This document shows, one piece after another, positions 1 to 51,039 of a DNA stretch of 56,413 nt. This DNA is from a virus. The stretch is from positions 1 to 56,413 of IMG/VR virus record IMGVR_UViG_3300025732_000048. One strand, given 5' to 3'. Made by a program: the position numbers and the translations under genes. How positions within the stretch are numbered: the first letter of the stretch is position 1; each line of letters begins with the position of its first letter. The notes under the pieces are model-generated. The model searched no databases. It was not told the origin of the DNA and worked only from the letters and a program-made list of their open reading frames with translations.

Positions 1-155
1 TTGCCACTGCTTTATTCGCAGATGAGCGCACAACTGAACTCTTTGCTCAACTGATTAGTGAGTTTGTAGAGACAAACATTCCTGTGGTTGATGATGAGAA
101 CCAGATGGAACTTTCTATGATGCTGTTGGAAACTCTGGACATTGTAGCACGATGA
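1..155 (+). CDS. Hypothetical protein, C-terminal end only
   Basis: The window opens inside an open frame whose first complete codon is at 3 and whose TGA is at 153-155. The 50 visible residues end in an acidic, helical-looking tail (MLLETLDIVAR). The stop overlaps the ATG of the next gene (ATGA), so the two are translationally coupled. The N-terminus lies outside the window and I do not recognise the family. Confidence 0.6.
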   Translation, partial: ATALFADERTTELFAQLISEFVETNIPVVDDENQMELSMMLLETLDIVAR

Positions 156-420: not shown

Positions 421-460
421 AATTAAAGTTATGATCGTCCAAAGCGTACCTATAGTATGA
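421..460 (+). promoter_or_regulatory. 40-bp promoter-like repeat, copy 1
   Basis: First of seven near-identical blocks that start AATTAAAGTTATGATCGTC and continue through AAAGYGTACC to TATAGTATGA. TTATGA at 429-434 and TATAGT at 451-456 are 16 bp apart, a sigma-70-like layout. The last bases contain the ATG (457) of the next gene. Every copy sits exactly at a gene boundary, which supports a promoter. Which hexamer is the real -10 is uncertain. Confidence 0.7.
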
Positions 461-696
461 GCACTAACATCGTTTCCGAAATCTACTCCTACCACACAAA
501 TTGGAAGGAAGGTAAAGTCAATCAAATGTGGATTGAGCAAATCACTGATAAAGAGTGTGACAATCTTTACGTTGCTGTTGCTCACAATCCCCGCAATGGT
601 TCTACGATGGAGATGAGCAATCCCCGCACATCTTATCAGGAAACTCTAAACTGGGTTCGTCATTGGTGTGGCACTTTCTGTATTCTTCCTGCCTGA
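457..696 (+). CDS. Hypothetical protein, 79 aa
   Basis: The ATG is part of the upstream 40-bp repeat, directly after TATAGT, with no Shine-Dalgarno sequence. The protein is soluble, with aromatic and charged segments (HTNWKEGKVNQMW) and a Cys-containing C-terminus (WVRHWCGTFCILPA). It is the first gene of a cluster of very closely spaced small genes that continues to 1640. Family not recognised. Confidence 0.6.
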   Translation: MSTNIVSEIYSYHTNWKEGKVNQMWIEQITDKECDNLYVAVAHNPRNGSTMEMSNPRTSYQETLNWVRHWCGTFCILPA

Positions 697-702
697 TTGA
701 TT

Positions 703-846
703 ATGACACAAACTCAATGGGATGATCTTTACATCAAACTCTACGAAGCGTATGAGTTTGTGTCACTGAAAGATGAGCAAGTTCGCTCTACTCTTGGTGA
801 TGCACTTGACCGACTGATTGACATTAACCCTCGCAACAAAAACTGA
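703..846 (+). CDS. Hypothetical protein, 47 aa
   Basis: A small frame from ATG 703 to TGA 844-846, six bases after the previous stop and two before the next ATG. That spacing matches its neighbours exactly. The peptide begins MTQTQWDDLYIKLYEAYEF and is predicted to be helical and acidic (LGDALDRLIDINPRNKN at the end). It is probably a real small early protein. Function unknown. Confidence 0.55.
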   Translation: MTQTQWDDLYIKLYEAYEFVSLKDEQVRSTLGDALDRLIDINPRNKN

Positions 847-848
847 TT

Positions 849-1118
849 ATGTTCCGCACACTTTCTGAACTTCGTGACTCTATCAACCAAATGATTGAGA
901 GTCAAGGTGAGAACGCTCCCTGTGCTGCGTTTGTATTCACTCAACATGATGTGTTTGAGTTCAATGAGGAAACCAATCAGGATGATTATTTCTCTACACT
1001 TTTCACTCAAGATGTACTCGCTGATGTAGGTGGTTCTTCCTACATTTACGAACAGGTTGGTGAAATGATTGATGACGCAATTCGTCTCCGTAAGAAACTC
1101 CCACTCTACGCTAATTGA
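849..1118 (+). CDS. Hypothetical acidic protein, 89 aa
   Basis: It begins two bases after the preceding stop. The N-terminus is helical (MFRTLSELRDSINQMIES), followed by a beta-like segment with a conserved look (APCAAFVFTQHDVFEF) and a Gly-Ser turn near residue 60. No catalytic motif or membrane helix is visible. It lies in the middle of the 457-1640 cluster and is presumably co-transcribed with it. Function unknown. Confidence 0.6.
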   Translation: MFRTLSELRDSINQMIESQGENAPCAAFVFTQHDVFEFNEETNQDDYFSTLFTQDVLADVGGSSYIYEQVGEMIDDAIRLRKKLPLYAN

Positions 1119-1120
1119 TT

Positions 1121-1306
1121 ATGACTGACGCTGAACTCACTAAACTTTACTACAGAAAGACTCGACTGTTTGATTTCTTGTATGAAACTTGCAAAAAGAA
1201 TGATGGTGTCTTAGTAGATACTTTGAACAACTACATTTCTTCCTTGGATGAGGTGGAACTGTGCGAACTTGAAGATTTTCTTGTCAACAACTTTGGAGAT
1301 GATTGA
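1121..1306 (+). CDS. Hypothetical acidic protein, 61 aa
   Basis: I chose ATG 1121 over an upstream in-frame TTG at 1115, because neighbouring genes all start with ATG two to six bases after a stop. The protein is almost entirely helical and acidic (LDEVELCELEDFLVNNFGDD at the C-terminus). Its TGA overlaps the next ATG at 1306. Function unknown. Confidence 0.6.
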   Translation: MTDAELTKLYYRKTRLFDFLYETCKKNDGVLVDTLNNYISSLDEVELCELEDFLVNNFGDD

Positions 1307-1500
1307 TGACTGACGGTTACACTTTCAATCGAGTTGAGTTCACTGCTAATGAGGAAACTTGTATCCTTAAGTTTCTCAATGAAGCACGAGAATGTGGGTA
1401 TCCCAGTGGTAACGAACCATGGTATCCTGTGATCGATTCTATCTTCCAAAAGTTCTTCAATTCTAACATTAAAGAGGCACAAGACTGGCAGACACTATGA
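1306..1500 (+). CDS. Hypothetical protein, 64 aa
   Basis: ATG 1306 overlaps the preceding TGA (ATGA) and is preferred to the in-frame TTG three bases upstream. The protein (MTDGYTFNRVEFTANEETC onward) mixes short beta and helical segments and has two Cys. Its own stop overlaps the next ATG at 1497, so four genes in a row are coupled or nearly so. Function unknown. Confidence 0.6.
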   Translation: MTDGYTFNRVEFTANEETCILKFLNEARECGYPSGNEPWYPVIDSIFQKFFNSNIKEAQDWQTL

Positions 1501-1640
1501 AGTACATCGTTGAGTTATACGTTGGTGGCAAAGTCTTCAAAGAAGAAGTACAAGCAACCAACCCAAAAGATGCCCGTGAGACAGCATTAGCACGAAATCC
1601 TCATGCTAGAGTAGTTGGTGTCAACGCAAGTTTCAAGTAA
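1497..1640 (+). CDS. Hypothetical protein, 47 aa, double-psi-like small fold
   Basis: ATG 1497 overlaps the previous stop; the TAA at 1638-1640 overlaps the next promoter repeat. The peptide starts MKYIVELYVGGKVFKEEV and continues with a helix rich in Ala, Asn and Arg, then a final strand (ARVVGVNASFK). This beta-beta-alpha-beta pattern is typical of a compact small domain and argues for a real gene. No family is assigned. Confidence 0.6.
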   Translation: MKYIVELYVGGKVFKEEVQATNPKDARETALARNPHARVVGVNASFK

Positions 1641-1678
1641 TTAAAGTTATGATCGTCTAAAGTGTACCTATAGTATGA
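1639..1678 (+). promoter_or_regulatory. 40-bp promoter-like repeat, copy 2
   Basis: It differs from copy 1 at two bases (GTCT for GTCC, AAGTG for AAGCG). The first two bases are the end of the upstream TAA codon and the last four include the ATG at 1675. TATAGT is at 1669-1674. Confidence 0.7.
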
Positions 1679-1845
1679 GCAACACTTTCACCGTCCGTTT
1701 CGTATCTGATGCTCTGGATTCTCCAGAGTATATTGGACCTTTCTACTCTGAAGATGACGCACAAGACTATTGCGATGCTCGCAACGGTTCTTTACAACTA
1801 GGTGGGATTCCTTCCTGGGTTGCTTGTTACTCTGTTGTTGACTGA
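1675..1845 (+). CDS. Hypothetical protein, 56 aa
   Basis: The ATG is embedded in promoter repeat copy 2 (TATAGTATGAGC), as for the gene at 457. The protein starts MSNTFTVRFVSDALDSPEY, then an acidic segment (YSEDDAQDYCDARNGS), and ends with a hydrophobic strand (WVACYSVVD). The layout resembles a small beta-sheet protein. Function unknown. Confidence 0.6.
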   Translation: MSNTFTVRFVSDALDSPEYIGPFYSEDDAQDYCDARNGSLQLGGIPSWVACYSVVD

Positions 1846-1848
1846 TTG

Positions 1849-2097
1849 ATGATTTCCCTTCCTAATCCTACAAACAAAATGACACTTACTCAAGACCAAA
1901 TCTACAAACTGACTCAACTCTATGCTGCGCGAGTTGTTGATAACATGGACATGCGTGATTTGTGTGTATTTGCCCAAGAGACGATTGTTGATAATATGAT
2001 TGACTATAATGAGAGTGAATTGATGGAAGAATTGTCGCACTATTATGAGGATGATGAACTCCAAGAATTAGTGGAAAGTGTAACACAAGAGCCCTAA
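1849..2097 (+). CDS. Hypothetical acidic protein, 82 aa or 72 aa
   Basis: Two starts are possible: ATG 1849, four bases after the previous stop, and ATG 1879, giving MTLTQDQIYKLTQLYAARVV. From memory, similar cyanophage proteins begin at the second Met, so 1879 may be the true start. No Shine-Dalgarno decides between them. The body is helical and very acidic (ESELMEELSHYYEDDELQEL), as in many phage host-takeover or DNA-mimic-like proteins, but no function is known. Confidence 0.6.
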   Translation: MISLPNPTNKMTLTQDQIYKLTQLYAARVVDNMDMRDLCVFAQETIVDNMIDYNESELMEELSHYYEDDELQELVESVTQEP

Positions 2098-2105
2098 TTC
2101 GTTTG

Positions 2106-2145
2106 AATTAAAGTTATGATCGTCTAAAGTGTACCTATAGTATAA
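2106..2145 (+). promoter_or_regulatory. 40-bp promoter-like repeat, copy 3
   Basis: Same block as the other copies but ending TATAGTATAA, so the ATG is absent here. The downstream gene starts 11 bp later at 2156. Together with copies 6 and 7 this shows that the conserved block is selected independently of the start codon. Confidence 0.7.
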
Positions 2146-2155
2146 CCGCACAACC

Positions 2156-2749
2156 ATGATGCAGAAACTCACAACGAATCAGGTTTATGGCAAACTCAAA
2201 GTAACTGATTTCAGTGTATTTGAGAAACCTGGAAAGAACAAAGGTGCTCGCGGGCAACTGTTAGAAACTGTGCTCGGAGTTCCTAATAGCTCTGACCTCA
2301 AAGATCTGGAGGATGGAGAGATCAAGACTTTCACTGTTGGTGAATCTATTGCTGCCACACAGTTAAAGCATTGTCTATCTGAAATCATCGAAGATTCTGT
2401 CTCGTTTGATGATAGCAAGGTTGGACAGAAACTACAACAAACTCTGTATGTTGGTTTCACCCGCTCCAACGATTATGTGGGTTGTGAGATTCTGAATGAG
2501 GAAACTCACCCCGAACACTATCAAGAATTGCGTGAGGATTATGACTTCATTTGTGATAGCATCCGCACACTTTTCAATGCTGGCAAACAACTAGGAACCA
2601 TCACTGGTCCTCACGGATTGCTACAGATTCGCACGAAAGCATCTAAAACCAATGGTGCTTATGTTCCTCTAACTTTCGCAGGTGTGACCCTTAAGGATAA
2701 AGGAATGGCATTTTATTTGTGTGGACAATTCGGACGCAATCTGTTCTGA
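2156..2749 (+). CDS. MutH/Sau3AI-like restriction/nicking endonuclease
   Basis: The 197-aa protein fits the MutH/Sau3AI family, PD-(D/E)XK nucleases that cut at or near GATC. What I see: GARGQLLETVLG (residues 30-41), parallel to the MutH GQLLE segment with its acidic residue (Glu37 here); then DLKDLEDGEIKT, giving Asp47 or Asp50 followed by Glu55-x-Lys57, the active-site D...E-x-K; and a C-terminal GLLQIRTKAS (residues 154-163) plus FYL (186-188), which parallels LQIRPKA and FYL in E. coli MutH. The length is close to MutH (229 aa). It stands alone between two promoter repeats with no methylase nearby. It could act in host DNA degradation or mismatch repair; the role is inference. Start 2159 is equally possible. 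Confidence 0.72.
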   Translation: MMQKLTTNQVYGKLKVTDFSVFEKPGKNKGARGQLLETVLGVPNSSDLKDLEDGEIKTFTVGESIAATQLKHCLSEIIEDSVSFDDSKVGQKLQQTLYVGFTRSNDYVGCEILNEETHPEHYQELREDYDFICDSIRTLFNAGKQLGTITGPHGLLQIRTKASKTNGAYVPLTFAGVTLKDKGMAFYLCGQFGRNLF

Positions 2750-2788
2750 ATTAAAGTTATGATCGTCCAAAGTGTACCTATAGTATGA
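2749..2788 (+). promoter_or_regulatory. 40-bp promoter-like repeat, copy 4
   Basis: It begins on the last base of the TGA of the MutH-like gene and ends with the ATG (2785) of the next gene. TATAGT is at 2779-2784. Confidence 0.7.
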
Positions 2789-2967
2789 CCAACATTCAAA
2801 TCGACTTCCAAGATACCATTGCTCCCGCACTTCTGGAGTTTATGTGTAACAATCACACAGACCTGAATGATACTGTAGATTGGGTTTGTGATGTATTTGA
2901 CCTTGATGCAACTGATGAATTGATTGATCAGATTGCTGATGAGTTTGATGCTTTCTTCGGTAACTGA
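2785..2967 (+). CDS. Hypothetical highly acidic protein, 60 aa
   Basis: It begins MTNIQIDFQDTIAPALLEFM, with the ATG inside promoter copy 4. Asp and Glu dominate the C-terminal half (DLDATDELIDQIADEFDAFF) with almost no Lys or Arg, so the protein is strongly anionic and helical. Such charge is seen in phage inhibitors that mimic nucleic acid, but that is only a possibility here. No known domain. Confidence 0.6.
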   Translation: MTNIQIDFQDTIAPALLEFMCNNHTDLNDTVDWVCDVFDLDATDELIDQIADEFDAFFGN

Positions 2968-2976
2968 TTAACACAA

Positions 2977-3159
2977 ATGACACACTACAATCCTTACGTT
3001 GAAAACCTAATTGAGATGGGTTATGATGAGCAAGACTGCCGCAATGTAGCAGCAGTTGGTGAAACAAACGTAACTTATCCGCGTAACATTCACGGTCGCA
3101 TCTTTGAGACTGAAAATGAATACAAAGAAGCACTTGCTGACTTTATCAACGGACTGTGA
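2977..3159 (+). CDS. Hypothetical protein, 60 aa (UBA-like helix pattern)
   Basis: ATG 2977, nine bases after the preceding stop. The N-terminus (NPYVENLIEMGYDEQDCRNV) resembles the start of a small three-helix UBA-type domain, where an MGY/MGF loop is typical, but the resemblance is weak. The stop abuts promoter copy 5. Function unknown. Confidence 0.55.
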   Translation: MTHYNPYVENLIEMGYDEQDCRNVAAVGETNVTYPRNIHGRIFETENEYKEALADFINGL

Positions 3160-3198
3160 ATTAAAGTTATGATCGTCCAAAGTGTACCTATAGTATGA
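3159..3198 (+). promoter_or_regulatory. 40-bp promoter-like repeat, copy 5
   Basis: It follows the previous TGA directly and contains the ATG (3195) of the next gene. Apart from the last bases it is identical to copies 4 and 6. Confidence 0.7.
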
Positions 3199-3383
3199 GC
3201 ACAACCAACAACGACAAAATGTTTATTCTCAACGATACCGCAAAGAATGATCCTGCTGTTCAGATTGCAATGGCAAATTATATTGAACAGTTAAAGCGTG
3301 AGGAAGCACGTCGGCAGGCAATTCTCTCTGGTGAGTATGTACCTTGTCCTGAAACTTCCTGGAATATCTCTGACCGCGACTGA
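3195..3383 (+). CDS. Hypothetical protein, 62 aa
   Basis: ATG 3195 lies in promoter copy 5; Met9 (3219) is an alternative if transcription starts inside the annotated frame. The middle is a charged helix (NYIEQLKREEARRQAILSG) and the C-terminus is short and polar with one Cys. No known domain. Confidence 0.55.
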   Translation: MSTTNNDKMFILNDTAKNDPAVQIAMANYIEQLKREEARRQAILSGEYVPCPETSWNISDRD

Positions 3384-3398
3384 ACTATATCTGAAATC

Positions 3399-3614
3399 AT
3401 GAAACTTTTCATCCTCAACAATGTCCTCTCTGATTGGACTTCTGGAATGGCAGTTATCGCTGCTGAAACTAAAGAACAATGCCGCGAGTTGTTTATCAAA
3501 GAGTTCAGCGAATATCATGCTCATGAGTTCGACAATCATGCCAAGTTCACTGTTATCGAATCGGTAGGACTTGATGAAGCAGGTGTTATCTCTTATGAGT
3601 ACGGTGGTGGTTAG
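3399..3614 (+). CDS. Hypothetical protein, 71 aa
   Basis: It starts MKLFILNNVLSDWTSGMAVI, an alternating beta pattern, then a helix (TKEQCRELFIKEFSEYHAHE) and a final strand pair ending in YEYGGG. This ferredoxin-like alternation supports a folded small protein. It is transcribed from copy 5 together with its neighbours. Family not recognised. Confidence 0.6.
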   Translation: MKLFILNNVLSDWTSGMAVIAAETKEQCRELFIKEFSEYHAHEFDNHAKFTVIESVGLDEAGVISYEYGGG

Positions 3615-3619
3615 TTAGA

Positions 3620-3772
3620 GTGGCAACCAAAAGACTCACTTTCAAGTCACCTGATAAAGTGAAAACAATTCTCCTCATTTTCGCTGTTGCTTTTATACTC
3701 TCCCCAGGAGTTCGCAACACTACCTCATCCACACTTCACACTGTAGCAGACATTATCCAACCTCATGATTGA
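3620..3772 (+). CDS. Small single-span membrane protein, 50 aa, GTG start
   Basis: An open frame from GTG 3620 to TGA 3770-3772. It has a basic N-terminus (MATKRLTFKSPDKVK), then a hydrophobic segment of about 13-15 residues (ILLIFAVAFILSPG) and a polar tail. The positive-inside pattern suggests an inner-membrane peptide with its N-terminus in the cytoplasm. It follows the previous TAG by five bases, and the next gene starts within it at 3765, so it fits the tight packing. Phage membrane peptides of this size often affect superinfection or lysis, but I cannot assign a role. Confidence 0.55.
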   Translation: MATKRLTFKSPDKVKTILLIFAVAFILSPGVRNTTSSTLHTVADIIQPHD

Positions 3773-3905
3773 GACTGATTATTACATCCTGAACCAGGAA
3801 CAATTCAACCAGTATAACACTGAAGCACAAGAAGTAGGTGTTAGCTTGGATTATTATTTGGATGAGTTTTGTGATGTGATTGGACCGTACATCACAAGTA
3901 ATTAA
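3765..3905 (+). CDS. Hypothetical acidic protein, 46 aa
   Basis: ATG 3765 overlaps the end of the membrane-peptide gene by 8 bases in another frame; the TAA (3903-3905) lies inside promoter copy 6. The product starts MIETDYYILNQEQFNQYN and ends in an acidic helix. It is too short for a family call, but its boundaries match the local packing rule. Confidence 0.5.
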   Translation: MIETDYYILNQEQFNQYNTEAQEVGVSLDYYLDEFCDVIGPYITSN

Positions 3906-3939
3906 AGTTATGATCGTCCAAAGTGTACCTATAGTATAA
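3900..3939 (+). promoter_or_regulatory. 40-bp promoter-like repeat, copy 6
   Basis: It ends TATAGTATAA without the ATG; the next gene begins at 3957. Its first bases overlap the stop codon of the upstream gene. Confidence 0.7.
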
Positions 3940-3956
3940 CCATCACACTTCCTACC

Positions 3957-4271
3957 ATGCGAAAGATTGAAAAGCAAATGAACGACGCAATCCTGAATCA
4001 AAAGGATTGGAAACAAGATAACACTGAAGTTATCTCTTGTTCCCATGTTTCTGATGTCTACCTTCACAACAATCTGATTGCCAGAATAGGCGAAACCTGG
4101 ATCGAATTGTTCGATGGTGGTTATCAATCAAAAACCACAAAGAGTCGCCTTAATGCTATTCTCCAAGCACACGGTTGCAAGAATGAGTATGTCTTTCAGA
4201 AGAAAGGTCAGTGGTTCATTCAATACAATGGAGCACCAATTCCTTTCTTCTCTGGTATGCGATTGAACTGA
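3957..4271 (+). CDS. Hypothetical protein, 104 aa
   Basis: The largest unrecognised protein of this cluster after the MutH-like one. It starts MRKIEKQMNDAILNQKDWK, a charged helix, followed by a run of short beta strands with Trp and Gly turns (RIGETWIELFDGGYQSKTT) and a C-terminal strand pair (KGQWFIQYNGAPIPFFSG). The compact beta-rich core suggests a small nucleic-acid or protein binding fold, which is inference only. Confidence 0.6.
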   Translation: MRKIEKQMNDAILNQKDWKQDNTEVISCSHVSDVYLHNNLIARIGETWIELFDGGYQSKTTKSRLNAILQAHGCKNEYVFQKKGQWFIQYNGAPIPFFSGMRLN

Positions 4272-4311
4272 ATCTTTCACTCTTAAGTAACACTCACTCT
4301 TCATTCCTTAA

Positions 4312-4446
4312 ATGTTCACAATCCGCTACTTTACTCCATATCAACAACAGTGGAGAACGCAATCATTCTCTACACTAGAGGAAGCAAATCGTATGGTTGA
4401 GTTCTACAAATCATGCGGAAGTCCTGCTGAACTCATTAACAACTAA
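4312..4446 (+). CDS. Hypothetical protein, 44 aa
   Basis: ATG 4312 to TAA 4444-4446. The peptide starts MFTIRYFTPYQQQWRTQSF and continues with a helix (TLEEANRMVEFYKSCG), a strand-turn-strand-helix pattern also seen in other small proteins of this region. The spacing of 40 bp upstream and 7 bp downstream is compatible with a gene. Function unknown. Confidence 0.5.
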   Translation: MFTIRYFTPYQQQWRTQSFSTLEEANRMVEFYKSCGSPAELINN

Positions 4447-4453
4447 TCCTATC

Positions 4454-4690
4454 ATGTTACTCTCCAAAGCATCATTCACTGACCAACAACTTCCTCCGTT
4501 CATTGTAAAGAAAGAGGATGAATATACAGAAGAAGGTAACTACTCTCTTCACCTATTCTCCAGAACTGTTATCACAACTGAAGGTAGAAAGTATAGGTAT
4601 CTGCCTCTTAAGTTTGAAGGTGAGTTAGCACGATTCAAGAAAAGAAAGGAAGCAGAAGAATACGCAAGGTACAGATTAGCACTTGATTGA
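4454..4690 (+). CDS. Hypothetical protein, 78 aa
   Basis: ATG 4454 is preferred to an in-frame TTG at 4397, because the extension would overlap the gene at 4312. The protein begins MLLSKASFTDQQLPPFIVKK and ends in a basic helix (ARFKKRKEAEEYARYRLALD). It is the last gene before a strong terminator, so it closes the main early transcription unit. Family not recognised. Confidence 0.6.
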   Translation: MLLSKASFTDQQLPPFIVKKEDEYTEEGNYSLHLFSRTVITTEGRKYRYLPLKFEGELARFKKRKEAEEYARYRLALD

Positions 4691-4700
4691 ATACACATAG

Positions 4701-4727
4701 AGACCTCATTCGTGGGGTCTTTTTTTA
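4701..4727 (+). terminator. Factor-independent terminator with UUCG loop
   Basis: AGACCTCA (4701-4708), loop TTCG (4709-4712), TGGGGTCT (4713-4720), then a T-run from 4720 to 4726. One G-U pair in an 8-bp stem. It ends the early gene cluster 11 bases after the last stop codon. Confidence 0.9.
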
Positions 4728-4750
4728 TGCCTATTTGTATGATTTGTGGT

Positions 4751-4789
4751 AAAAAATGTATTAAAAACGATTAAAAATGTATTAAAAAA
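4751..4789. repeat. Phased A-tracts with a 16-bp direct repeat
   Basis: AAAAATGTATTAAAAA occurs perfectly at 4752-4767 and 4773-4788, 21 bp apart. The four A-runs begin at 4751, 4763, 4773 and 4784, about one helical turn apart, which predicts intrinsically bent DNA. It lies just behind the terminator in a 384-bp stretch without genes (4727-5110). Confidence 0.7.
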
Positions 4790-4831
4790 TATATTTTACC
4801 TTTCTTTATCGTGTGATAATTATTGTTATTA

Positions 4832-4964
4832 AGAGGTGATAATGATATGAATTCGTATCAAATAGAGAGTGATTTATGTGTCTTTAAATGTGTCTGGGTC
4901 TGACACTTATAGTCAATTAAATGTGTCTGGTGCTTGTGATCTAAGCCCGCATTCTATCACCTCT
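4832..4964. repeat. Iteron-like repeats inside a distant inverted repeat
   Basis: AGAGGTGATA (4832-4841) is a perfect inverted copy of TATCACCTCT (4955-4964). Between them ATGTGTCT occurs three times (4876, 4888, 4921); the last two are part of a perfect 14-bp repeat TTAAATGTGTCTGG (4884-4897, 4917-4930). A small hairpin GTGTC/GACAC lies at 4890-4906. No ORF is credible here. An origin or regulator-binding region is a possibility, not shown. Confidence 0.55.
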
Positions 4965-5110
4965 CCGCACAAATGTCAAGACCCGCCGCCATCAGAAATC
5001 CCACACATACCCTCACAAAAACATAAGCATCCCGAATAAATACCCCCAGACTCATTGACATTTTTCCAGCAGCATCTTACAATACTCTCATACACATTCG
5101 GAGCGTACTT

Positions 5111-5284
5111 ATGTCAGTTGCTTATTCCCAGGCACAGAAGCAGCGTTATCGTATCACTCTGGATCTATCAGTGTTCGGTGACTTCGACCCACACCAGATT
5201 GATTGGGAGAAGTTATTCAAGTTGGAACCTGCAGAGAAGTGTGATGCTTACGTTGAGGACCTAAGTACACCTGACAACTGGTAA
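5111..5284 (+). CDS. Hypothetical protein, 57 aa
   Basis: ATG 5111 to TAA 5282-5284, first gene after the non-coding gap. It starts MSVAYSQAQKQRYRITLDL and then has an acidic, Trp-containing segment (FGDFDPHQIDWEKLFKLEP). A longer frame at 5055-5264 overlaps it in another register but encodes an implausible, hydrophobic and patternless product, so I take this one as real. The stop lies ten bases before promoter copy 7. Function unknown. Confidence 0.6.
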   Translation: MSVAYSQAQKQRYRITLDLSVFGDFDPHQIDWEKLFKLEPAEKCDAYVEDLSTPDNW

Positions 5285-5293
5285 TCTTCAAGG

Positions 5294-5333
5294 TATTAAA
5301 GTTGTGATCGTCGAAAGCGTACCTATAGTGTAG
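5294..5333 (+). promoter_or_regulatory. 40-bp promoter-like repeat, copy 7 (most diverged)
   Basis: TTGTGA (5302-5307) replaces TTATGA, bringing it closer to the sigma-70 -35 consensus, and TATAGT is kept at 5324-5329. The ATG is lost (TATAGTGTAG). It drives the gene at 5377 through a structured 5' leader. Confidence 0.65.
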
Positions 5334-5357
5334 GGGGCACACAAACGACCCCCACAC
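5328..5357 (+). other. Hairpin in the leader of the gene at 5377
   Basis: GTGTAGGGGG pairs with CCCCCACAC (one bulged A) around an 11-base loop. No T-run follows, so it is not a terminator. It starts inside the 3' end of promoter copy 7, so the complete stem is transcribed only if RNA synthesis starts upstream of 5328. Confidence 0.55.
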
Positions 5358-5376
5358 TAACACTCAAGACGTACCA

Positions 5377-5628
5377 ATGACTGTCACTTACCAGCACAAT
5401 GTTCTCGACACCAGCTATAACGGTTGGGAGAATTATGAGACCTGGAATGTTGCTCTGTGGATTAACAATGATGAGGGTTTGTATCACCTCGCAATGGAAG
5501 TTGGCAACTACGTTGACTTCATCGACCTGCTAAATGACCAGGGTATTGTGAGCACTCCTGACGGGGTTAAGTATAACGACCCTGCTGTAAATGTCATCCA
5601 ATTGAATAGCGATGTGTTCGACCTCTAA
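5377..5628 (+). CDS. Conserved phage protein with NGWENYETWNVALW motif (DUF7249-like)
   Basis: 83 aa. The segment NGWENYETWNVALWINNDEG (residues 15-34) is a motif I recognise from a small conserved family in cyanophages and some bacteria, listed to my knowledge as DUF7249; the function is unknown. The rest is a helix with aromatic residues (YHLAMEVGNYVDFIDLL) and a polar tail. It has its own promoter (copy 7) and hairpin leader, so it may be regulated apart from its neighbours. Confidence 0.7.
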   Translation: MTVTYQHNVLDTSYNGWENYETWNVALWINNDEGLYHLAMEVGNYVDFIDLLNDQGIVSTPDGVKYNDPAVNVIQLNSDVFDL

Positions 5629-49611: not shown

Positions 49612-51039
49612 ATGTTCCATTCAGAGCATCTGCAGGAAAAGTGGGCACCTCTCCTCAACTATGAGGGTCTTGATACAATCAAAGATTCGCACAGAAGAGC
49701 GGTAACCGCAGTCCTGCTGGAAAACCAAGAAAAATTCTTAAGAGAGCAAAATGCTTTCGCAACTTCAGGTTCATTCCTGACAGAAGCAGCTCCTAACGTT
49801 AATACTCAATCTGGCGCAAACGCTGGTTTCAGTGCTAATGCTACCGATGCTGGTCCTGTTGCAGGTTTTGATCCAGTTCTGATTTCTCTAATCAGACGTT
49901 CAATGCCTAACCTGGTCGCTTATGACCTCGCTGGCGTTCAACCAATGAGCGGTCCTACTGGACTCATCTTCGCAATGCGCTCCCGCTATGCTAGCCAGTC
50001 TGGTGGCGAAGCACTGTTCAACGAAGCAGATACCGCATGGTCTGGTCAGAACAATTCTCGCAACCTCACTAGCGGATTCAGTGATGCTAATGCTGGTCTC
50101 GGTACTACCGCACAATCTGGCGTTAACCCATCAGTTCTGAACCCAGTTGGTAGTGCAAACTCCCTCGGCTATAATGTTGGTCAGGGTATGCGTACTGATG
50201 CTGCTGAAGCTCTTGGCGACGGCACCAGCAACGAGTTCAACGAGATGGCATTCTCAATCGAGAAAGTCACCGTTACTGCAAAGTCACGCGCACTGAAGGC
50301 TGAGTACTCACTTGAGCTTGCTCAGGACCTTAAGGCAATTCACGGTCTGAATGCAGAAGCTGAGTTGGCAAACATTCTGTCAACTGAAATTCTTGCTGAA
50401 ATCAACCGCGAAGTCATCAGAACCATCTACAAGGTTGCTGAGCAGGGTGCTGTTCAGAACGTTGCTACTGCTGGTACTTTTGACCTTGACGTTGACTCCA
50501 ACGGTCGTTGGTCAGTTGAGAAGTTCAAGGGTCTTCTGTTCCAAATCGAGCGCGATGCTAACGCAATTGCACAGCGCACTCGTAGAGGAAAGGGCAACAT
50601 CATCATGTGCTCTGCTGACGTTGCTTCAGCACTGACCATGGCTGGTGTTCTCGATTACACCCCAGCACTCAACGCTAACCTGAATGTTGATGATACCGGC
50701 AACACCTTTGCTGGTACTCTCATGGGCAAATTCCGCGTATACATTGACCCATATGCTGCTAACCTGACTGCTGCTAATGGCACTCCAGGCAACCAGTACT
50801 ATGTTGTCGGTTATAAGGGTTCTTCACCTTATGACGCTGGACTCTTCTATTGCCCATATGTTCCCCTCCAAATGGTTCGTGCCGTTGGTGAGAACACCTT
50901 CCAGCCAAAGATTGGCTTTAAGACCCGCTACGGCATGGTCGCTAACCCATTCGCGGAAGGAACCAACCAGGGTCTTGGTGGTCTCAACGTTAACGCAAAC
51001 CGTTACTACAGACGTGTTGCTGTTAAGAACCTCATGTGA
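49612..51039 (+). CDS. 23: Major capsid protein gp23
   Basis: 475 aa (T4 gp23 521 aa). The N-terminus WAPLLNYEGLDTIKDSHRRA and LLENQEKFLRE is the T4-like propeptide. SFLTEAA gives a gp21 cleavage site after Glu58, and VALIRR/FDPVLISLIRRSMPNLVAYD opens the mature protein. FSIEKVTVTAKSRALKAEYS and the C-terminal FKTRYGMVANPFAEGTNQGL are family hallmarks. It forms the hexamers of the HK97-fold capsid. Codons end in C or G more often than in neighbouring genes, as expected for the most abundant virion protein. A strong terminator follows. Confidence 0.97.
   Translation: MFHSEHLQEKWAPLLNYEGLDTIKDSHRRAVTAVLLENQEKFLREQNAFATSGSFLTEAAPNVNTQSGANAGFSANATDAGPVAGFDPVLISLIRRSMPNLVAYDLAGVQPMSGPTGLIFAMRSRYASQSGGEALFNEADTAWSGQNNSRNLTSGFSDANAGLGTTAQSGVNPSVLNPVGSANSLGYNVGQGMRTDAAEALGDGTSNEFNEMAFSIEKVTVTAKSRALKAEYSLELAQDLKAIHGLNAEAELANILSTEILAEINREVIRTIYKVAEQGAVQNVATAGTFDLDVDSNGRWSVEKFKGLLFQIERDANAIAQRTRRGKGNIIMCSADVASALTMAGVLDYTPALNANLNVDDTGNTFAGTLMGKFRVYIDPYAANLTAANGTPGNQYYVVGYKGSSPYDAGLFYCPYVPLQMVRAVGENTFQPKIGFKTRYGMVANPFAEGTNQGLGGLNVNANRYYRRVAVKNLM

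Follow-up and report, generated by a model that had tools for sequence, protein, structure and literature searches.

The 56,413-nucleotide stretch of viral DNA analysed here (the window; IMG/VR record IMGVR_UViG_3300025732_000048, positions 1 to 56,413) is a 56.4-kb fragment of a T4-like cyanomyovirus, and it contains seven near-identical repeats that are early-type promoters of a T4-like cyanophage. Each repeat joins a constant right half to eight bases in the -35 region, here called the barcode, which are uniform among the copies of one phage and private to it, and the barcode covaries with the C-terminus of a single basic protein, the candidate reader. We propose that this protein is made late, packaged and ejected, and that it brings host RNA polymerase to the early promoters by reading the barcode; to this model, taken as a whole, we assign a probability of about 0.62.

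Early promoters with a phage-private barcode

The seven copies start at 422, 1640, 2107, 2750, 3160, 3901 and 5295, all on the + strand, and are located in a cluster of small genes upstream of gp25. A 39-bp pattern, ATTAAAGTTRTGATCGTCnAAAGYGTACCTATAGTRTRR, fits all seven with zero mismatches; no copy of it is expected by chance in dinucleotide shuffles (n = 100), and a search of the 56.4-kb record revealed no eighth copy. All seven lie at gene boundaries. An earlier note on this DNA had described the seven repeats, placed each at a gene boundary and called them promoter-like elements of an early cluster; the first two points are borne out, and the third is supported.

IMG/VR was scanned with the right half alone, which yielded at least 120 stretches, 444 unique sites and 70 loci with at least three sites, a comparison set of contigs that are related to one another and mostly fragments. 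In S-SM2 and SynMITS9220M01, both isolates, elements of this type occupy the corresponding place, with 12 copies (relaxed pattern) in the former and about 12 in the latter; P-TIM68 has 13 more diverged copies. The right half is common to all relatives and the left half differs. Elements inside the genes of related phages, which the earlier note had named as counting against its reading, did not occur: none of 334 lies within an open reading frame (ORF). The upstream stop codon adjoins the element (median 3-4 nt), and T-runs of at least six precede just 24 of the 334. In IMGVR_UViG_3300034066_002030 (G013), 11 of 12 copies have AAAGTGGACC in place of AAAGTGTACC, which shows that phage-specific sequence can extend into the constant half.

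The barcode, GTTATGAT in the window phage, is directly followed by a C that is invariant everywhere, and an AAA also flanks it. When copies were compared column by column, barcode columns matched at 0.78-0.99 among the copies of one contig but mostly at 0.25-0.5 across contigs (0.71 at one position), a contrast that is absent at positions outside the element. Barcode identity within a contig is 0.92, against 0.398 (standard deviation 0.008) with shuffled barcodes; 286 of the 306 sites at loci with at least four copies have at most one mismatch to the locus consensus, and 26 distinct consensus barcodes occur among 50 loci. The position of a TTGACA-like -35, which is missing from these elements, is filled by the phage-private 8-mer, e.g. 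GTTATGAT, AGGGGGGT or CTCTGGGG. Both the promoter architecture and the privacy of the barcode can be read directly from these sequences. The conservation beyond the needs of a sigma-70 promoter to which the earlier note drew attention is thus real, the left half being the same in every copy of a given phage and different in other phages; its cause was missed because it is visible only between phages.

Orthologues of the gene behind window copy 1, 87-95% identical in DNA, stand behind the same right half with other barcodes (GTTAGGAT, TACTGAGG, ACTTGGAT, GTTACTCA, TACTGGGC and TACTGAGC), and orthologous pairs with 85-90% identical downstream DNA have a barcode identity of 0.42. The uniformity of the barcode is therefore not a matter of cassettes inherited as wholes. 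Within a phage, the bases between barcode and core are 0.79 identical (-25..-23) and those upstream of the barcode 0.53 (-43..-38; both numbered with TATAGT as the -10, two bases off the numbering used below), and the lower uniformity of the former relative to the barcode disfavours plain homogenisation of the cassette.

A candidate reader protein that covaries with the barcode

The candidate reader is a basic protein of about 190-210 residues with an isoelectric point above 10, represented by SSM2_065 in S-SM2, and was picked among the families that barcoded genomes have in common but that Syn9 and Bellamy lack. A tblastn search of 50,697 phage records found it in ten, namely S-SM2 (two), P-TIM68 (two), SynMITS9220M01, AG-345-O18 and AG-345-E15, and in partial form S-B05, RN05-S and RB11-B; for comparison, the terminase of the window phage matches 511 records. 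All six reader-bearing phages checked have barcoded elements, S-B05 and AG-345-E15 having been inspected for elements only because of their match to the reader. Neither barcoded elements nor reader were found in Syn9, Bellamy, P-SSM2, P-TIM40, S-WAM1 and S-CREM1.

Across 49 contigs, and with general divergence removed, identity over the C-terminal 60 aligned columns of the reader correlates with barcode identity (partial r 0.66), a value not reached in 2000 label permutations (maximum 0.19) or by 51 other families (at most 0.26), whereas the first half of the reader gives about 0.1. Since many reader genes end next to an element, the covariation was retested with distant elements: r was 0.56 for elements more than 500 nt away only, 0.61 for contigs without an adjacent element and 0.52 after dereplication, and in these three control settings no permutation reached the observed r and the N-terminal part gave -0.09 to 0.07. 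The barcode is shared with the nearest C-terminal neighbour in 37 of 47 cases (5.6 expected), compared with 10 of 47 by the N-terminal part. Readers of contigs L025 and L010, for instance, are 79% identical in the N-part and 32% in the C-part and their barcodes differ; those of P-TIM68 and L031 are 48% identical in the N-part and 73% in the C-part and have nearly the same barcode. In three held-out phages, the best C-terminal matches have the same or a near-identical barcode. There is thus, in the aligned sequences, a strong and specific covariation between the barcode and the C-terminus of one protein, and it is very probable that the reader binds the barcode. An unusual factor reading the repeats, one of the possibilities raised by the earlier note, is supported.

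The AlphaFold2 model has a C-terminal helix pair (residues 158-209, predicted local distance difference test above 90) and little else that is confident, and searches of Pfam, PHROGs and PDB gave no relative of the reader. A 176-aa protein that came up in a whole-protein screen (r 0.82) was dropped as the reader; its r covers 9 contigs and is driven by two outliers, not by the barcode. Comparison of SynMITS9220M01 and P-TIM68 against S-SM2 gave no DNA-binding candidate, a search of the early S-SM2 proteins against Pfam and PHROGs gave no regulator, and a literature search for the motif letters returned only noise.

The N-terminus of the reader family (MKTFQEFxxEAYD) resembles that of T4 ipII and ipIII (MKTYQEFIAEA). 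M1, F4, F7 and E12 hardly vary within the family, and 43 of 45 readers contain a hydrophobic-x-E motif that resembles a cleavage site; the aromatic residue 4, F7 and cleavage-like E of T4-type head proteins are thus all present. In T4, an N-terminal stretch sends proteins to the capsid, residues 4 and 7 being the most important in IPIII, and the internal proteins and Alt are ejected, Alt modifying host RNA polymerase so that T4 promoters are favoured (PMC9026906). In addition, TAAATA, which forms the core of T4-type late promoters, lies at most 60 nt upstream, mostly at -28 to -32, of 44 of 45 reader genes, versus 120 of 2089 starts of other families, a rate equalled only by gp25, a true late gene; the motif is missing in two held-out phages. 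This late-type motif suggests that the reader is made late, and together with the N-terminus it makes packaging and ejection of the protein probable.

A candidate reader gene of the window phage lies on contig L010 (IMGVR_UViG_3300006917_000654), the end of which is identical to window positions 1..89 (+ strand, 89 nt) and which holds further elements with the barcode of the window. Because of this exact overlap and the shared barcode, the 210-aa gene at L010:5979-6611 (- strand), which an element directly follows and which would lie some 6 kb ahead of the window, is taken as the candidate.

The -10 hexamer and the overlapping ATG

To keep the -10 call unbiased, 424 sites were chosen by barcode alone. 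TANNNT, the -10 of sigma-70-type promoters, is present in the register TAGTRT at 384 of them and in the register TATAGT at 295; 110 sites fit the TAGTRT register only and 21 the TATAGT register only (p = 9e-16). After this barcode-only anchoring, TATAGT was dropped for TAGTRT, and TATGAT was dropped as well, relatives being without that phage-specific part. On the sequence evidence, the -10 is therefore TAGTAT or TAGTGT, the last two bases of the former being the A and T of the ATG. Numbered from TAGTRT, the barcode occupies -37..-30, the invariant C -29, AAA -24..-22 and ATG -8..-6; conservation stops 5-6 nt past the hexamer, and transcription would be expected to begin near +1, shortly after the ATG. 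Since the ATG overlaps the -10, the promoter's own transcript cannot contain it. The earlier note, which had weighed TATAGT as a possible -10 with an mRNA that would lack the ATG, was right about the message and two bases off in the hexamer; its other candidate, TATGAT, falls in the left half and is unrelated in other phages, and the leaderless mRNAs starting at the promoter ATG that it considered are not supported.

The promoter ATG is nevertheless under selection as a codon, to judge from the following counts. A frame of at least 35 codons is opened by 168 of 181 ATG sites versus 53 of 108 GTA and 20 of 50 ATA sites; counted by gene family, the ATG is in frame in 26 of 34 (p = 2e-4), and a third-position G pairs with a first-position A 209 times and with a first-position G only 7 times. 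A second in-frame ATG, most often at +15, follows in 111 of the 168 in-frame ATG sites, and at non-ATG sites the gene ATG is mostly at +16 to +21, which places it some 6-12 nt behind the expected 5' end of the own transcript. The simplest and most likely account is that the promoter ATG is used by read-through messages and the next ATG by own transcripts, which fits the absence of elements from ORFs, the adjoining stop codons and the scarcity of upstream T-runs. At such promoters, those of S-SM2 and SynMITS9220M01 for example, many annotated start codons may be incorrect. In many phages (e.g. L032, L061), the promoter ATG is itself the first codon of a gene whose product begins MKNTHLEHPED, and L032 has ATA where its relatives have the second in-frame ATG of this gene.

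In the window, as the earlier note had seen, ATG stands right behind TATAGT in four copies (457, 1675, 2785 and 3195); the triplet of the remaining three is ATA, ATA or GTG(TAG), with gene starts at 2156, 3957 and 5377. All copies are on the + strand. Copy 1 (422..459) has its barcode at 428-435, the invariant C at 436, AAA at 441-443 and the -10 TAGTAT at 453-458, which is overlapped by the ATG (457-459) that opens a 79-aa ORF (457-696). Copy 2 (1640..1677; barcode 1646-1653, AAA from 1659, -10 TAGTAT 1671-1676) provides at 1675 the sole start of a 56-aa ORF. The ATG at 2785 of copy 4 (2750..2787; barcode 2756-2763, -10 TAGTAT 2781-2786) opens a 60-aa ORF with the next in-frame ATG 57 nt on, and that at 3195 of copy 5 (3160..3197; barcode 3166-3173, -10 TAGTAT 3191-3196) has a further in-frame ATG 24 nt downstream. 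ATA replaces ATG in copy 3 (2107..2144; barcode 2113-2120, -10 TAGTAT 2138-2143), with its gene from 2156, and in copy 6 (3901..3938; barcode 3907-3914, -10 TAGTAT 3932-3937), followed from 3957 by a Kyano_Gp96 gene (PF23790). Copy 7, the most diverged (5295..5332), has the barcode GTTGTGAT at 5301-5308 and the -10 TAGTGT at 5326-5331, and its gene starts at 5377 behind a GGGGG/CCCCC stem-loop. The arms of this stem-loop (5330-5365) lie at the expected 5' end of the copy 7 transcript, and similar GGGG/CCCC arms are found behind some non-ATG elements of related phages (L118, L105).

Proposed mechanism, alternatives and known systems

In the proposed mechanism, a constant host-type right half (AAAGYGTNCC spacer, TAGTRT -10 and RAGCAC discriminator) would be combined with an 8-bp private barcode at the -35 position that is read by the cognate basic protein. 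The reader, which would be made late and carries a T4-type capsid-targeting N-terminus, would probably travel in the capsid and enter the cell together with the DNA. There, the two helices at its C-terminus would contact the barcode beside sigma and bring host RNA polymerase to the early promoters of the same phage; the protein would act much as MotA does in T4, except that it would arrive with the virion. Transcription would begin just past the ATG that overlaps the -10, so that this ATG would serve only read-through mRNA from upstream promoters; translation of own transcripts would rely on an ATG located some 6-12 nt from the 5' end, if one is present there. Packaging, ejection, DNA binding, activation rather than repression and the start sites are the parts of this model that we infer. 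Activation by the reader rather than repression is likely, and we see a somewhat better than even chance that a lytic tailed phage here packages its own sequence-specific early-gene activator, with a private barcode and a matching C-terminal module for each phage type.

If so, only the phage's own early genes would be switched on, and the reader would be to these phages what VP16 is to herpesviruses, with one family comprising dozens of specificities distinct from one another; the comparisons with VP16 and with the geometry of T4 MotA are general knowledge. Were the reader both ejected and activating, we would know of no earlier case in tailed phages of a sequence-specific activator delivered by the virion, and abundant ocean viruses would offer a natural set of many distinct promoter-reader pairs. 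For the control of the first genes in T4-like cyanophages, which lack MotA and AsiA, the present analysis yields a concrete, testable pair that consists of a promoter element and a protein family unrepresented in Pfam and PHROGs. The barcode could also mark the early promoters of a phage and so link metagenomic fragments, as for L010 and the window.

Several points weigh against this interpretation. The model of the reader gives no fold match, and its DNA-binding role is drawn from covariation and charge. Two barcodes are mixed among the copies of several contigs (L062, L110, L094), possibly recent recombinants caught mid-switch, and the sites are not independent because the contigs are related and mostly fragments. 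For 51 genes with an in-frame promoter ATG there is no second ATG nearby, and therefore their own promoter could not express them. The putative reader gene of the window phage lies outside the window, linked to it by one 89-nt exact overlap and the shared barcode. Finally, the reader could act as a repressor instead of an activator.

The last point leads to the alternative that survives best, though we consider it unlikely: the barcode could be an operator, and its cognate protein a repressor that silences early genes or keeps out superinfecting phages with matching specificity, private barcodes arising by selection to escape the repressors of other phages. Multi-copy, asymmetric intergenic sites that co-evolve with one protein are known from the stoperators and immunity repressor of cluster A mycobacteriophages (PMC6550527, PMC9283540), and the elements described here likewise are multi-copy, lie in short intergenic gaps oriented with transcription and covary with one protein; frequency-dependent selection would moreover account for 26 barcodes in 50 loci. 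Stoperators, however, repress in temperate phages, whereas the present sites are promoters, their phage is T4-like and the protein is probably packaged. The phages concerned are not known as temperate, the barcode stands in for an otherwise missing -35, and late-type expression with a capsid-targeting N-terminus would deliver the protein when early genes must be on.

Neutral concerted evolution, in which recombination homogenises the copies without any reader and the C-terminus hitchhikes with the adjacent element, is improbable. An element lies at most 30 nt past the stop codon in 27 of 49 reader genes, recombination is heavy in T4-like phages and some contigs are mixed, but homogeneity is confined to the barcode (0.92 versus 0.79 and 0.53 at neighbouring positions) and the covariation persists when only elements at a distance of more than 500 nt are used and when the contigs are restricted to those lacking a neighbouring element. 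About as little room is left for ordinary host sigma-70 promoters whose -35 region is read by nothing phage-specific: the -10 is host-like and marine picocyanobacterial promoters often have no -35, but an unread -35 would not reach 92% identity among the copies within a phage.

Least probable are two further readings. Near-leaderless mRNAs starting just before the ATG from TATGAT as the -10 would agree with the frames opened by 168 of 181 ATG sites, versus about half or less at GTA and ATA sites, and with the 209-to-7 pairing of G after the invariant T with A before it, which points to translational selection on ATG; TATGAT, however, lies in the private half, where relatives have GGGGGGTC, ACTTGGAT, CTCTGGGG and others, the constant part holds a TANNNT -10 at TAGTRT, and non-ATG copies have the gene start 16-21 nt further downstream. 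The earlier note also considered that the block works as RNA; a role mainly as RNA, as a processing or translation signal in a polycistronic message, is not supported: the element fills nearly the whole intergenic gap and terminators are few, but the -10/-35 geometry is promoter-like, the discriminator ends where initiation is expected, and the private part covaries with a basic protein bearing capsid-targeting and late-gene features.

Among known systems, T4 middle promoters are similar in that a phage protein (MotA, with AsiA) reads a site replacing the -35 beside a host-type -10; they differ from the barcoded promoters, in which the site is private to each phage and the reader is without a Pfam or PHROGs relative and apparently virion-borne. 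MotA and AsiA domains were found in none of 11 cyanophage records, the window itself being a fragment, while the T4 positive control matched, and a MotA/AsiA middle promoter was rejected for this reason; T4-like cyanophages have been reported to lack both proteins (PMC5780444), in agreement with our searches. A T7-like single-subunit promoter, considered because of a CTATAG resemblance, was rejected, T7-type RNA polymerase being found in 0 of the 11 records with a matching T7 control. The T4 internal head proteins and Alt share the basic, capsid-targeting N-terminus; here, in contrast, the C-terminus covaries with promoter sequence. We know of no sequence-specific DNA binder among those T4 proteins.

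An early regulatory element of Syn9 and P-TIM40 was reportedly described by Doron et al. in 2016; like the barcoded element it is multi-copy and stands before small early genes upstream of gp25. Syn9, P-TIM40, Bellamy, S-WAM1, S-CREM1 and P-SSM2 have TGTGCCA/TGGCACA-type motifs, other -10s and no reader protein, and the window elements have no TGTGCCA/TGGCACA inverted repeat upstream of the -10, one that is present in P-TIM40. The Syn9/P-TIM40 element seems to belong to another class, with TGTGCCA/TGGCACA as its basis. This second early-promoter class, with inverted repeats and in some cases stem-loops, was seen at L015, L018, L217, L218 and L219 (Syn9, Bellamy, S-WAM1, S-CREM1 and P-TIM40, respectively), and annotated starts may fall inside it too, Syn9 gp73 beginning at the GTG of CGTGTATTC.

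Landmarks of the window are gp25 (8427), gp6 (8830), the terminase gp17 (38641; 77% identical to that of S-SCSM1) and the late sigma factor (54093). Within the early cluster, a hairpin with a T-run at 4699-4730 resembles an intrinsic terminator and closes the first part, and a host-like promoter (TTGACA-17-TACAAT) at 5055-5083 lies ahead of a gene at 5111. In S-SM2, the early cluster includes a gene with the annotation type II restriction enzyme (L014:2847-3374; S-SM2 50147-50674), and a Pfam MjaI restriction-endonuclease match was obtained among the early proteins of this phage.

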